From: Akkermansiaceae bacterium
Lineage (GTDB): Bacteria > Verrucomicrobiota > Verrucomicrobiia > Verrucomicrobiales > Akkermansiaceae
Direction: 5' to 3'
Length of the DNA stretch: 64,000 nucleotides
NCBI GenBank assembly: GCA_029253285.1
Contig: JAQWZU010000132.1
Coordinates: forward strand, 124,001 to 188,000
Below, piece by piece: positions 32,775-38,273 of this stretch. The position numbers and the translations under genes are program-made. The number at the start of each line of letters is the position of its first letter. Position 1 is the stretch's first letter. The notes under the pieces were generated by a model. It saw only the letters and a list, made by a program, of their open reading frames with translations, was not told the origin of the DNA and ran no database searches.

Positions 32775-32804
32775 TTGACCACTCACAGAATACTGTTCTA
32801 ATGA
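32775..32804 (+). promoter_or_regulatory. Predicted imuA promoter overlapping the LexA box
   Basis: TTGACC (32775-32780) followed after 16-18 bases by TCTAAT (32797-32802) or TAATGA (32799-32804). The -10 element lies inside the LexA box, so bound repressor would block RNA polymerase. The GTG start at 32809 falls at about the expected +1. Confidence 0.5.
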
Positions 32805-32807
32805 ACA
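32794..32807. promoter_or_regulatory. LexA box at imuA
   Basis: TGTTCTAATGAACA is a perfect TGTTC-N4-GAACA palindrome ending two bases before the imuA GTG. This is the form I recall for verrucomicrobial LexA. A second copy precedes dnaE2, which supports the assignment. Confidence 0.85.
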
Positions 32808-32808
32808 T

Positions 32809-33417
32809 GTGTCTGCGCTTTTAGAGATCGATGAACTTCGCCGGGAACTTCGCGAAAAGTTCCCCGCCGCGCATCGTCCTGCCCCTCTTCCCGAAGAACC
32901 CCACGCCGCCTCCAACCTCATCTTCGAACGCGGCAGCATCAACGAAGTCGTCTCCTCTCAGCCCAATCAGGGCATGGCTTTGTTCATTTCTGAACTCCTC
33001 TCCCAAAAATGCGATCTCCCCCTCGCCCTCGTCGACGGACGCGATTCCTTCGACCCCGGCTCTCACGGCAACCTCAAATGCCGGCAGCTCTTCTGGATCC
33101 GTTGCCGCGAGATTTCCCAGGCCATCCAATGTTCCGATCTCCTCCTCCGCGACGGCAATCTCCCGCTCGTCTTGCTCGATCTCCATCTCACTCCGGCCCG
33201 CGAACTCAAACGCCTTCCCATGTCCACCTGGCATCGCCTGCGAAATCAAGCCCGCGAAAGTGGCACCACCTTGCTCGCGCTTACTCCACAACCACTTCTC
33301 CCCTCGGTCAAACAACGACTCACCCTCACCGGGAATTTCAGTCTCGATCATCTCGAACTCCACCCGCCCCGATTACAGTTTCAGGAAAAATCCCTCGCGC
33401 AACGCGCCGCGCTCTAA
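32809..33417 (+). CDS. imuA: ImuA-like SOS mutagenesis protein
   Basis: A 202-residue protein starting with GTG at 32809 directly behind the LexA box. It shows the RecA-like helical core of the ImuA/SulA-type proteins (ERGSINEVVSSQPNQGMALF, LALVDGRDSFDPGSHGN, LRNQARESGTTLLALTPQ) but no Walker A phosphate loop, as expected for ImuA. ImuA acts with ImuB and DnaE2 in damage-induced mutagenesis. imuB follows 7 bases later. No Shine-Dalgarno sequence is visible because the LexA box occupies that space. Confidence 0.85.
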   Translation: MSALLEIDELRRELREKFPAAHRPAPLPEEPHAASNLIFERGSINEVVSSQPNQGMALFISELLSQKCDLPLALVDGRDSFDPGSHGNLKCRQLFWIRCREISQAIQCSDLLLRDGNLPLVLLDLHLTPARELKRLPMSTWHRLRNQARESGTTLLALTPQPLLPSVKQRLTLTGNFSLDHLELHPPRLQFQEKSLAQRAAL

Positions 33418-33424
33418 CCCCGCC

Positions 33425-34912
33425 ATGTTCTCCTGCTTCCACTTCCCGGCCTTTTCCCTGAACTGTCTCCTCGCGCGCGACGACATCGCTCCGGAACAAG
33501 CCGCCGTTCTTCTCTCGCGAGGCGAACGCGAAAAGTCATCGCTCCTCGAAGTCAACGAAGCCGCCCGGCAACACGGACTTCTCCCCGGCCTCCGCACCAC
33601 CCGCGCCCTCGCTCGCTGCGCGGATCTTCTTTTGATGGAACCCGACGAAGAGGCCGAGATCGCAACCCGCCGCGAACTCCTCGCCTTCATCGAAAGCCTT
33701 ACCCCTGACTTCGAACTCACCTCACCGGAAACCTTCCTCCTCGATCTCTCAAGCATTCTCTATTCATCCGAAAATGATTGGCTCCGCAACAGCCTCGACG
33801 CATCGAAGCACCTCGCTCTCCCCGTGCAAGCCGCCCTCGGATCCACCCCCGACCTCGCTCACCTCACCGCGCTTTCCCGCCACACCGCGGCCCGACCGGG
33901 ACATCTTCCCGAGAACTTCTCTCCCTTCGCCTTACCTTTGGACGAACTCATCAAAAGCGGCAGCTTCCCTCTCAAAGATCTCGAAGTCCTCCACCTCTGG
34001 GGACTTCACACCCTCGGAGATCTCGCCGTCTTGCCACGCCAAGGACTCGCCGAACGCCTCGGCCCCGATCTTGCCCGACTTCACGATATCCTCCACGAAA
34101 AAAGCACCCGCCTCCTCAAACTCCACCAGCCTTTACGCGTCTTTCAGATCAGCCACACCTTCGAACCTCCCGTGGAAAATCACGAACCCATTCTCTTCAT
34201 CGCCCGACGCCTCCTCCAGACCCTCTGCAATCGTCTCGCCCACCACCAACGCGCCGCCGCCGAGATGGCCTTCCACCTTTCCTTCGAAAATGGCGCCGGC
34301 CACACCCGCACCATGGAGATGTCCGAACCCACCCTCTCGCCCGACATCCTTCTCAGCTCCCTCCACACACATCTCGAGAACTTCTCGGCCCCCGCGCCCA
34401 TCAATGAATTCCATCTCGAGCTCATCCCCACGCTCCCACGACACGCCCAACATCAACTCTTCCATCGCGGCATCAAAGATCCGCATCAGTTCGATGACAC
34501 CTTGCGCCGCCTTTCAGGTATCGTCGGAGCCCACCGACTCGGCATTCCCCAGGTCGCCAACACCCATCGACCCGACATCCTCGAACTCCACCCGCTCACT
34601 CCCGACTTCACCAAGCCCACCGGCATCGATCACTGGCCGGGCTCCCGTCTCCCCATGTCCCGATTCCGCCCGCCACTCACCGTTCATCTAGCCACCCAAA
34701 AGGAAGAAAAATTCCCGCGCCCCCTCGCCATCCTCACGGGCCCGCACCAAGGCACCGTCACCACCCTCCGCGGCCCCTTCCCCTTATCCGGATCATGGTG
34801 GCAACACACCTGGCAACAAGTCGAATGGGACATCGAACTCAACAGAGAAACCCTCCTCCAACTCTCCTTCACCCCCCCCGAAACCTGGGCCCTCACCGGA
34901 ATCTATGGATAG
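33425..34912 (+). CDS. imuB: ImuB, Y-family polymerase-like mutasome hub protein
   Basis: A 495-residue protein with Y-family polymerase architecture but without catalytic acidic residues. The position of the first metal Asp reads FPAFSLNCLL instead of D-x-D/F, so it should be polymerase-dead like other ImuB proteins. It acts as the platform joining DnaE2 to the sliding clamp and ImuA. The N-terminal palm/fingers (1-170) have EVNEAARQHGLLPG and FLLDLSSIL. The thumb/HhH region (about 180-240) holds LGDLAVLPRQGLAERLG, and the little-finger domain follows. I start it at the ATG at 33425. The same frame remains open back into imuA, but that part is a shadow of imuA. Confidence 0.88.
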   Translation: MFSCFHFPAFSLNCLLARDDIAPEQAAVLLSRGEREKSSLLEVNEAARQHGLLPGLRTTRALARCADLLLMEPDEEAEIATRRELLAFIESLTPDFELTSPETFLLDLSSILYSSENDWLRNSLDASKHLALPVQAALGSTPDLAHLTALSRHTAARPGHLPENFSPFALPLDELIKSGSFPLKDLEVLHLWGLHTLGDLAVLPRQGLAERLGPDLARLHDILHEKSTRLLKLHQPLRVFQISHTFEPPVENHEPILFIARRLLQTLCNRLAHHQRAAAEMAFHLSFENGAGHTRTMEMSEPTLSPDILLSSLHTHLENFSAPAPINEFHLELIPTLPRHAQHQLFHRGIKDPHQFDDTLRRLSGIVGAHRLGIPQVANTHRPDILELHPLTPDFTKPTGIDHWPGSRLPMSRFRPPLTVHLATQKEEKFPRPLAILTGPHQGTVTTLRGPFPLSGSWWQHTWQQVEWDIELNRETLLQLSFTPPETWALTGIYG

Positions 34913-35071
34913 AGTTTCAAAACTCCTATTCGAAATTTACTGTTCTCAATCCATTCACTACTTAAAAATGCTTGTCATAACTCATCAGAATCGCCGGACG
35001 CCTCCTCGTTAAACGCGCCATCGGAGATTCGACGCGAAAGGCGATTCCATCCTCTCAAACTCACAATTAAA

Positions 35072-35095
35072 ATAATTGTTCAAATGAACAATTAT
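35072..35095. promoter_or_regulatory. LexA box at dnaE2
   Basis: The core TGTTCAAATGAACA (35077-35090) again fits TGTTC-N4-GAACA. The palindrome extends to perfect 10-base arms, ATAATTGTTC and GAACAATTAT, around AAAT. It lies 19 bases before the dnaE2 ATG. The 200 bases after imuB hold no gene. Confidence 0.88.
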
Positions 35096-35114
35096 CACTT
35101 AGGATCGCTGGGCC

Positions 35115-38100
35115 ATGGAGCTCCTCGCAAAATCCTCTTTCTCCTTTCTCCGCGGTTCCAGCCTTCCTGAAGATCTTTTTACTCGCGCCGCCGAACTTGG
35201 ACACAAAACCATCGGCCTCGTCGATCACATGGGCTTCTACGGTTCCGCCCGCGCCCACCACACCGCACAAAAACATGGCATCCGCGCCATCGTCGGCGCG
35301 ACCTTGGAAAGCCTCCCGCTCTCTGGGAAATCCTTAACGATCTCCCAACTCCCTGTTCTCTGCCAATCCCGACAAGGCTACCAAAACCTCTCGCAACTCC
35401 TCACCCGCTGTCATTGCGCACCCGACTCGCAACACTGGGAAGAGCATTCGCTTTCGGGCCTTCATGCCGTTCTCACGCCCGAGTCTTTTACCAAACTGAC
35501 CCGACAAAAACTCCTCGCCTCTGCCATCGCGCTCAAAGAACTCTTCGGCCCCCATAACGTCTCACTCGCCCTCTTCCGTCATCACCGACGGGGCGAGGAA
35601 CGCCGAAATCAACTCATGCGTGATCTCGGTGAACATCTCAAGCTCCCCCTGCTTGCAAGCAACGCGCCGCTTTATGCCAAACCCAAAAATCGTCTCCTCA
35701 CGGACGCCTTCACCTGTCTCCGTGAAAAAACCACGCTCGATGACGCCGGACGCCGCCTCGAGATGAATGGAGAACGTTTTCTGAAATCTCCCGTGGAACT
35801 CCAGCAACTCTTCTCCGCTTATCCTGAAGCAACACGACACGCCTACGAATTGAGCGAGCGCTGCGCCTTTTCACTCGAAAACCTCGGTTACCGCTTTCCC
35901 CGTTTCCGTGATCCTGAAACCAACGAACTCCTCAGCGATGAAGCCCAACACGAAACCCTCAGAACTCGCGTCGTCTCCGGTCTCAAAACCCGCTTCAAAA
36001 AAGTCAGCCCACAACACAGACAACAAGTCAGGCACGAACTCAGCACGATCCGTCAACTCGGTTTCTCCGGTTACTTTCTCATCGTATGGGACCTCGTGCG
36101 TTTCGCTCGATCCCACGGAATCCTTTGTCAGGGCCGGGGTTCCGCGGCCAACTCGCTCGTCTGTTACGCCCTCGGCGTCACCAGTGTCGATCCCGTCGCG
36201 GGAGGGCTTCTCTTCGAACGCTTCCTTTCAGAAAACCGCCAATCCTGGCCCGATGTCGATATCGACTTCCCCTCCGGCGAGCGGCGTGAATCCGTCATCC
36301 AATACCTATTCCAAAAATACGCCCCACACGGCGCGGCGATGACAGCCAATGTTATCACCTACAAACCGCGCTCCGCCTTCCGGGAAATGTCCAAGGTTCT
36401 TGGCTTCCCCGAAACAATCGCCAACCGCTTCACCGAACTCTGTGCCTCGCCCAAGGTTCACGACACCAAGCAAGAGAAGCCGCCCGAAGAACTCTCGATG
36501 GACAACTACTACCCACGCAGCCAAGTCATGGATCTTGCCGACACCATCGAGCGCTCCGGAGTTCCCGCCAACCATCCCCGCTTCAACGCACTCCTGCAAC
36601 TCTATCACGACATTCTCCACTCCCCCCGTCACCTCGGACAGCATTCCGGCGGCATGGTCTTTTGTGACGACGGGCTCGATCAGATCGTGCCGCTCCAACC
36701 CGCCGCCATGCCTGGGCGCACCGTGTTGCAGTGGGACAAGGACGACTGCGAAGACCTCGGCATTATCAAAGTCGATCTCCTCGGACTGGGCATGCTCGCG
36801 GCCATGGAAGACGCCCTCCGCATTTGCGAACAACGCGGCCGTCCCGTCGATCTCGCCAAGATCCCTAAAGATGACCCCGCTACTTATGACCTCCTCTGCC
36901 GCGCCGATACCATCGGCACCTTCCAGGTCGAATCCCGAGCCCAGATGGCCACGCTTCCCATCATGCAACCCAAGACATTCTACGATCTCGCGGTGCAAGT
37001 GGCCATCATTCGACCTGGCCCCATCGTAGGCGATCTCGTTCACCCCTACCTCAATCGACGCACCGGACGGGAAGCGATCGAGTATATCCATCCCTCTTTC
37101 GAGCCGATCCTCAAACGAACTCTCGGCGTCCCTCTCTTCCAGGAACAAGTTCTCCGTATGGCCATGGAGATTGCCAACTTCACCGGCGTGGAAGCCGACT
37201 ACTTACGCAAGGCGATGTCTTTCAAACGTTCCGACGAACGTATGATGGAGATTTCCCAAAAACTGCAAGCCCGCATGGCTGAGCGAAATATTCCCAAAGA
37301 AGTCCAGGAGCGCGTGGTGCAATCCATCGGAGCCTTTTCGCTTTACGGGTTCCCCGAATCCCACGCCATCTCCTTCGCGCTCATCGCTTACGCGTCCTGC
37401 TGGCTGAAGCAACATCGCGCCGCCGAATTTTTCTGCGGACTCATCAACAACCAACCGATGGGATTTTACTCCGTCAACACTCTCATCCAGGACGCCCGAC
37501 GACACGGCGTGCGCACAAAGCCGGTCTCGCTCAATGAATCGATGATCGAAACGACCGTCATCGACGACGCGACCCTGCGCCTCGGCTTTCATCACCTAAA
37601 AGGAATCCGCAGTCACACCAATGACCGCATTCTCGAGGAACGCAGCCAACTCCGCTTCACCTCCTTGAATGACTTCCTCCATCGCGTTGCGCCTAACAAA
37701 AGAGAACGCCGCGCCCTCGCCGCCATCGGCGCACTTAATGAACTCCCTGAAATCGAACACCGCCGTGATGCCCTCTGGCAGAGTGAACAACTCCCCTTCG
37801 ACGACCTCTTCGCCAAACAAGAGAACTCCAAGGAACAAGTCCTCGAAATGATGCAACCCGCCGAGCGACTTGAGACCGACTTCACCCTGCAAGGAACCAG
37901 CCTCGGTCCTCACCCGATGCGGCTTTGGCGCCAAGCTCAGCGCGATTCCAAACTAGTTACCTCCGACGATCTCAAACGTCTCTGGCACGGCAATCCGCTG
38001 AGCATCGCCGGCATGGTCATCTGCCGCCAACGTCCCGGCACCGCAAAAGGACACTGCTTCATCTCCCTCGAAGATGAATACGGCATCGCGAACCTCTTCG

Positions 38101-38273
38101 TACCTCGCAAAACCTTCAAACACTTCCGGCTCACCATCATCAGTGAATCCTTCCTCCTCTGCCAAGGCCGTCTGCAAATCACCGAAGGCCGGCAACCCAC
38201 CATCTATGTCACTTCGGTCAAGCCCTTAGCCAAAGCCCCCGGTATGGCATCTAGCTCACACGATTTCCATTAA
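35115..38273 (+). CDS. dnaE2: Error-prone DNA polymerase III alpha subunit DnaE2
   Basis: A 1052-residue C-family polymerase used in translesion synthesis. The PHP domain leads (MELLAKSSFSFLRGSSLPED, about 1-280). The polymerase core has GQGRGSAANSLVCYALGVT with the catalytic PDVDIDFPSGERR (two Asp) and a later Asp in IIKVDLLGLGMLA. The fingers, the HhH (about 780-800) and OB-fold (about 935-1010) complete it, and it ends in SHDFH, the tail typical of DnaE2 and absent from replicative DnaE. An AGGA at 35101-35104 is a possible ribosome binding site. It is expressed from its own LexA-controlled promoter rather than from imuAB. Confidence 0.95.
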   Translation: MELLAKSSFSFLRGSSLPEDLFTRAAELGHKTIGLVDHMGFYGSARAHHTAQKHGIRAIVGATLESLPLSGKSLTISQLPVLCQSRQGYQNLSQLLTRCHCAPDSQHWEEHSLSGLHAVLTPESFTKLTRQKLLASAIALKELFGPHNVSLALFRHHRRGEERRNQLMRDLGEHLKLPLLASNAPLYAKPKNRLLTDAFTCLREKTTLDDAGRRLEMNGERFLKSPVELQQLFSAYPEATRHAYELSERCAFSLENLGYRFPRFRDPETNELLSDEAQHETLRTRVVSGLKTRFKKVSPQHRQQVRHELSTIRQLGFSGYFLIVWDLVRFARSHGILCQGRGSAANSLVCYALGVTSVDPVAGGLLFERFLSENRQSWPDVDIDFPSGERRESVIQYLFQKYAPHGAAMTANVITYKPRSAFREMSKVLGFPETIANRFTELCASPKVHDTKQEKPPEELSMDNYYPRSQVMDLADTIERSGVPANHPRFNALLQLYHDILHSPRHLGQHSGGMVFCDDGLDQIVPLQPAAMPGRTVLQWDKDDCEDLGIIKVDLLGLGMLAAMEDALRICEQRGRPVDLAKIPKDDPATYDLLCRADTIGTFQVESRAQMATLPIMQPKTFYDLAVQVAIIRPGPIVGDLVHPYLNRRTGREAIEYIHPSFEPILKRTLGVPLFQEQVLRMAMEIANFTGVEADYLRKAMSFKRSDERMMEISQKLQARMAERNIPKEVQERVVQSIGAFSLYGFPESHAISFALIAYASCWLKQHRAAEFFCGLINNQPMGFYSVNTLIQDARRHGVRTKPVSLNESMIETTVIDDATLRLGFHHLKGIRSHTNDRILEERSQLRFTSLNDFLHRVAPNKRERRALAAIGALNELPEIEHRRDALWQSEQLPFDDLFAKQENSKEQVLEMMQPAERLETDFTLQGTSLGPHPMRLWRQAQRDSKLVTSDDLKRLWHGNPLSIAGMVICRQRPGTAKGHCFISLEDEYGIANLFVPRKTFKHFRLTIISESFLLCQGRLQITEGRQPTIYVTSVKPLAKAPGMASSSHDFH

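Follow-up and report, generated by a model that had tools for sequence, protein, structure and literature searches.

A probable second LexA operator before dnaE2 in the contiguous imuA-imuB-dnaE2 cassette of a small Verrucomicrobiota clade

Results

Two LexA boxes in a complete mutagenesis cassette

The 64-kb window (the whole stretch of DNA analysed here) belongs to a 4.3-Mb genome of the Verrucomicrobiota and contains a complete ImuA-ImuB-DnaE2 SOS mutagenesis cassette. Judging from the sequence and its conservation, this cassette very probably carries two operators for a single LexA, the second of which, together with a presumed promoter, was gained before dnaE2 in the clade of the window genome. 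Two perfect TGTTC-N4-GAACA palindromes, at imuA and at dnaE2, had been noted in an earlier sequence-only reading as the only such sites in the 64 kb. Both were recovered as exact matches (32794-32807 and 35077-35090), and a scan allowing at most one mismatch returned nothing beyond these two boxes. The features of the region are listed below, with coordinates given as positions within the window.

32775..32804, + strand: putative imuA promoter, with TTGACC as the -35 element (32775-32780), an 18-nt spacer and TAATGA as the -10 element (32799-32804); read from the sequence
32794..32807, + strand: LexA box 1, TGTTCTAATGAACA, 1 nt before the imuA start codon; exact match
32809..33417, + strand: imuA, RecA-like accessory protein of 202 aa with a GTG start; open reading frame and RecA profile match
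33425..34912, + strand: imuB, Y-family polymerase homologue of 495 aa; PF00817 and PF11799
34940..35047, + strand: 108-nt insertion between imuB and the dnaE2 box; absent at the same place in three sister genomes
35072..35095, + strand: LexA box 2, with the core TGTTCAAATGAACA at 35077-35090 inside a palindrome with arms of 10-11 bases; exact match
35101..35104, + strand: AGGA, possible ribosome-binding site of dnaE2; read from the sequence
35115..38273, + strand: dnaE2 (imuC), error-prone DNA polymerase of 1052 aa; NF004225 and Pfam domains

The three genes are contiguous on one strand, with imuA upstream of imuB. DnaE2 scores 1084.8 bits against a cut-off of 939 for the NCBIfam model NF004225 and contains the Pfam domains PF07733, PF17657, PF14579, PF02811 and PF01336. 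ImuA matched none of the Pfam and NCBIfam models, and a search for it on plasmids gave no match either; a profile of seven ImuA homologues nevertheless matched RecA chains of the PDB, with an E-value of about 1e-4 for single-domain RecA. ImuB displays a clamp-binding-like motif, QHQLF, at residues 342-346, with the pattern Qxx[LW][FL] kept in 21 homologues.

A genome-wide scan for the motif, which the sequence-only reading had proposed as a check, gave four exact sites in the 4.3 Mb, versus no match for a reversed control pattern. The chance expectation from a first-order Markov model of the window is 0.064 exact sites in 64 kb and about 4.3 in the genome, so that the total of four does not by itself exceed chance and is not the evidence. 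The evidential signal is the position of the sites and their conservation: three of the four are placed at the start of a gene, with conservation in relatives. The remaining exact site (L003) is inside a 326-codon open reading frame and was treated as a chance occurrence. The genome also contains 40 strand-pairs of one-mismatch sites (a count of 80); among the matches listed, nearly all fall inside long open reading frames, except for two at recA, and apart from that pair they were likewise set aside as chance.

The imuA box overlaps a putative promoter

Box 1 is a constant feature of the cassette. Wherever the sequence could be read in the genus (18 of 18 members), a perfect box is found at -15 from the imuA start; in the wider family, 35 of the 36 scored contiguous cassettes (dnaE2 at least 50% identical) have one ahead of imuA. 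On this distribution, we regard the imuA box as the ancestral one. The TAATGA element, which resembles a -10 hexamer, sits within box 1; TTGAC and its spacing to TAATGA recur in most aligned genus members, where TAATGA usually spans the centre of the box, so that bound LexA would cover the -10 element. A generic sigma-70 scan of the region flagged no promoter, the putative imuA promoter included.

In the window (32794-32811), box 1 ends one base before the GTG and holds the likely -10 element. With imuA starting one base after the box, its transcript may be nearly leaderless, and this arrangement suggests that leaderless or nearly leaderless imuA mRNA may occur across the genus.

The spacer between imuB and dnaE2

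The sequence-only reading had taken the two boxes to split the mutasome into two units, with dnaE2 controlled separately from imuAB, in contrast to the single operon of many proteobacteria. What survives of this is that dnaE2 has its own box and with it a second LexA input. The split itself does not follow, as the genes are contiguous and share one LexA, and neither a terminator-like site nor an attenuator was found in the 202-nt spacer between imuB and dnaE2. The contrast with the proteobacterial operon is beside the point, as most of the genus itself has a contiguous cassette with the imuA box only. Since the genes lie on the same strand under the same repressor with no terminator-like site between them, read-through from imuA may occur.

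Fully independent imuAB and dnaE2 units, with no read-through and the polymerase uncoupled from its accessory proteins, are an unlikely arrangement. The box of dnaE2 would suit it, as would the length of the spacer here, 202 nt versus 3-19 nt in many sister species, and an imperfect inverted repeat (GAATCGCCGGACGCCTC/GACGCGAAAGGCGATTC) inside the 108-nt insertion. The RNA structure of the spacer is not unusual, though (z = -0.68), and, besides the missing terminator and the shared strand and repressor, the insertion is absent from the three sisters that share the second box.

The spacer measures 3-246 nt, and often less than 20, in the 14 other genus members, and 93-95 nt in the four-genome clade, but 202 nt in the window genome. 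The 108-nt insertion lengthens it in the window genome only and could lower read-through. It is present as a single copy in the genome, and a search of 26 further genomes of the genus gave no match; with no obvious target-site duplication either, a repeat or mobile element was rejected as its source. The likeliest arrangement is an extra LexA-controlled dnaE2 promoter in a still-linked cassette, with possible read-through from imuA.

Box 2 as a local gain in one clade

The core of box 2 ends 24 nt before dnaE2 and lies within the palindrome ATAATTGTTC-AAAT-GAACAATTAT. The 10-base perfect arms ascribed to this site are borne out, and they reach 11 bases if the centre is counted as 2 nt. All four genomes of the clade (G000, which holds the window, G060, G031 and G062) have a perfect box at position -38 relative to dnaE2, which is absent from the 14 other genus members whose cassettes are contiguous; the spacers of the four also keep TTAGG, in line with the possible ribosome-binding site. 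With a lone imuA box in most of the genus, box 2 would be a recent local gain. Trees of dnaE2 and of imuB put the clade in the same place, which indicates that dnaE2 was inherited vertically and that box 2 was gained in place. Horizontal replacement of dnaE2 as the source of the box was rejected on the same agreement, and because the stand-alone boxed dnaE2 genes fall elsewhere.

Across the family, six of the seven dnaE2 genes lying apart from imuB have a box of their own, versus three of 41 contiguous cassettes, all three from the window's clade.

Other genera of the family also contain dnaE2 genes that stand alone (L137, L139, L140, L147 and L027), each with its own LexA box, either perfect or with one mismatch; some of these are a second dnaE2 alongside a full cassette in the same genome. 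In two members of the window's genus, G057 (L133) and G074 (L190), imuB is not followed by dnaE2; the dnaE2 of G057 is found on a different contig and has no LexA box that could be recognised, amounting to a physically split cassette.

It is distinctly improbable that box 2 is a chance or neutral palindrome, produced for instance by quasi-palindrome correction, which would have no regulatory role and leave dnaE2 served only by read-through from imuA. The box is indeed young and confined to four close genomes, among which the conservation of its core (variable positions 0/10, compared with 18/81 outside it; Fisher p = 0.20) fits selection but is not significant alone. Moreover, the palindrome arms are imperfect in the sister genome G060 (ATAATTGTTC/GAACAATATT) and perfect in the window genome, an outcome that template-switch correction would equally give. 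Against this, the site is an exact 10-base LexA match upstream of a typical LexA target, for which the prior is near 1e-4 per 100 bp, it is unchanged in four genomes, and the same box recurs at the stand-alone dnaE2 genes of the family. Because the extended arms vary between sister genomes, little weight should be placed on their length beyond the LexA half-site. An operator for some other dyad-binding regulator, to which a palindrome running past the LexA half-sites might point, is extremely improbable, given that the specified bases are identical to those of the genus-wide imuA box and that the LexA core stays constant while the arms differ.

A single canonical LexA and its regulon

The two-operator reading has one repressor available to it: the genome encodes a single LexA of 205 aa, with HTH and S24 peptidase domains (PF01726 and PF00717) and a score above the cut-off of TIGR00498. 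In the protein, we located the cleavage site AAG in GSIAAGMAEA, the catalytic Ser in GESM and the Lys in TTLKR, and the canonical features of a self-cleaving LexA (N-terminal DNA-binding domain, S24 peptidase, Ala-Gly, Ser and Lys) are all present. Together with the recurrence of the motif before recA and lexA across the genus, this upholds the identification of the two sites as LexA boxes.

In the window genome, two LexA-like sites with one mismatch each lie upstream of recA, and one with two mismatches upstream of lexA. Across the genus, recA promoters contain degenerate copies of the motif, often two separated by one base (e.g. TGCTTTTATGAACA-C-TGTTCATATGATT), and lexA promoters contain a conserved degenerate copy, often with a second copy before it. 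These sites are weaker than the boxes at imuA and dnaE2.

The pairing of two degenerate sites one base apart is seen at recA (L017, L198-L222) and often at lexA (L016, L149-L173), whereas imuA and the microprotein gene described below each have a single perfect site. Such a difference between tandem degenerate and single perfect sites suggests graded repression.

TGTTC-N4-GAACA is reportedly the LexA-binding motif of Verrucomicrobia, as described by Erill, Campoy, Kilic and Barbe in 2016 (Front Mol Biosci 3:33). The boxes and the recA and lexA copies fit this motif: the 14-bp palindrome, the phylum, the SOS target genes and the single canonical LexA are all the same, and what is added here would be a further site within a contiguous imuA-imuB-dnaE2 cassette. 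Two later papers (PMC7739468 and PMC8565304) cite the Verrucomicrobia LexA motif study of Erill et al. 2016.

A candidate SOS microprotein under the fourth exact box

The fourth exact LexA box of the genome (G000:C215:23212-23225) includes the ATG of a short, conserved open reading frame outside the window.

G000:C215:23072-23218 (L004:1361-1507), - strand: conserved 48-codon open reading frame (P0001); LexA box and homologues

Strong homologues are encoded in 17 of 27 genus genomes (16 relatives and the window genome itself, E below 2e-6). All 17 genes have their start codon within the LexA box, which is perfect in 16 of them. Substitutions are strongly synonymous (mean pS 0.72, pN 0.22), with dN/dS of 0.04-0.34 where computable. 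In nine of ten fetched stretches the gene is situated about 40 nt downstream of the topoisomerase IV subunit A gene, the tenth ending at a contig end. The proteins are basic and predicted to form one helix followed by a free tail (pLDDT 75, pTM 0.35).

Every microprotein ends in Q[LM]E[LF]PF, the window genome's in QLELPF, and a slightly relaxed form of this pattern, Q[LM][EDS][LF]P[FL], has one occurrence among the translated long open reading frames of the fetched loci (640,232 residues). We take this tail to resemble sliding-clamp-binding motifs such as QLSLPL of Hda. Weaker relatives with the tails QMDLPL, QLDLPL or QLDLPF were detected in three genomes of two other genera. One of these, in G007, has a perfect LexA box over its ATG; no dnaE2 was seen in that genome, which argues that the microprotein is not an obligate partner of the mutasome.

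Searches of Pfam, NCBIfam, PHROGs, the PDB and viral contigs gave no match to the microprotein, and a literature search combining the SOS response, LexA, small proteins and clamp-binding motifs found no such protein. It is thus an apparently undescribed, candidate new SOS protein, probably missed by annotation pipelines because it is so short. We tentatively propose a family of SOS microproteins of about 48 aa in the LexA regulon, encoded 3' of the topoisomerase IV subunit A gene, with the start in the box, one basic helix and a clamp-binding QLELPF tail. Such a protein might occupy the clamp after damage and help to displace the replicase or to free the clamp for polymerases of repair or translesion synthesis, ImuB-DnaE2 among them, a role that we regard as possible rather than probable.

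Discussion

From the directly observed boxes, their conservation pattern, the single LexA, the gene order and the lack of a recognisable terminator, we propose the following course for the two-operator cassette. A single LexA would repress it at both operators, of which the ancestral one overlaps the putative imuA promoter, the box centre doubling as its -10 element. On the ancestral branch of the clade, the imuB-dnaE2 spacer would have grown to about 94 nt and gained a second perfect operator, with which a second promoter presumably came. Upon DNA damage, RecA filaments would trigger LexA self-cleavage and both promoters would open together. dnaE2 would then be expressed from a promoter of its own, to which read-through from imuA would probably add, so that the level of DnaE2 may be raised or re-timed relative to ImuA and ImuB.

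Many arrangements of the imuA-imuB-dnaE2 cassette exist (PMC3901139, PMC8072749). In Mycobacterium tuberculosis, imuA'-imuB and dnaE2 (imuC) are at two loci, both LexA-controlled (PMC3901139). As there, a LexA box separate from that of imuAB precedes dnaE2 here; unlike there, where the loci are separate and the accessory protein is ImuA', the cassette encodes ImuA, is contiguous on one strand and acquired its second box in the spacer. Single operons are formed by imuA-imuB-dnaE2 in many Alphaproteobacteria and by lexA2-imuA-imuB-imuC in Pseudomonas putida (PMC3901139). With these, the window's cassette shares gene content, gene order and control by LexA at the head of the operon, but that description mentions no second box between imuB and dnaE2 for them; the sister species of the window's genus resemble this single-operon type. 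As a separately LexA-controlled dnaE2 is already known, box 2 departs only modestly from known SOS control; the microprotein, exposed by the genome scan for the LexA motif, is the more novel lead.

The locus would represent a regulatory change in progress, in which the polymerase gained an extra LexA operator in one small clade. Its single-box relatives provide a matched natural comparison for asking whether the dose or timing of DnaE2 relative to ImuB alters induced mutation.
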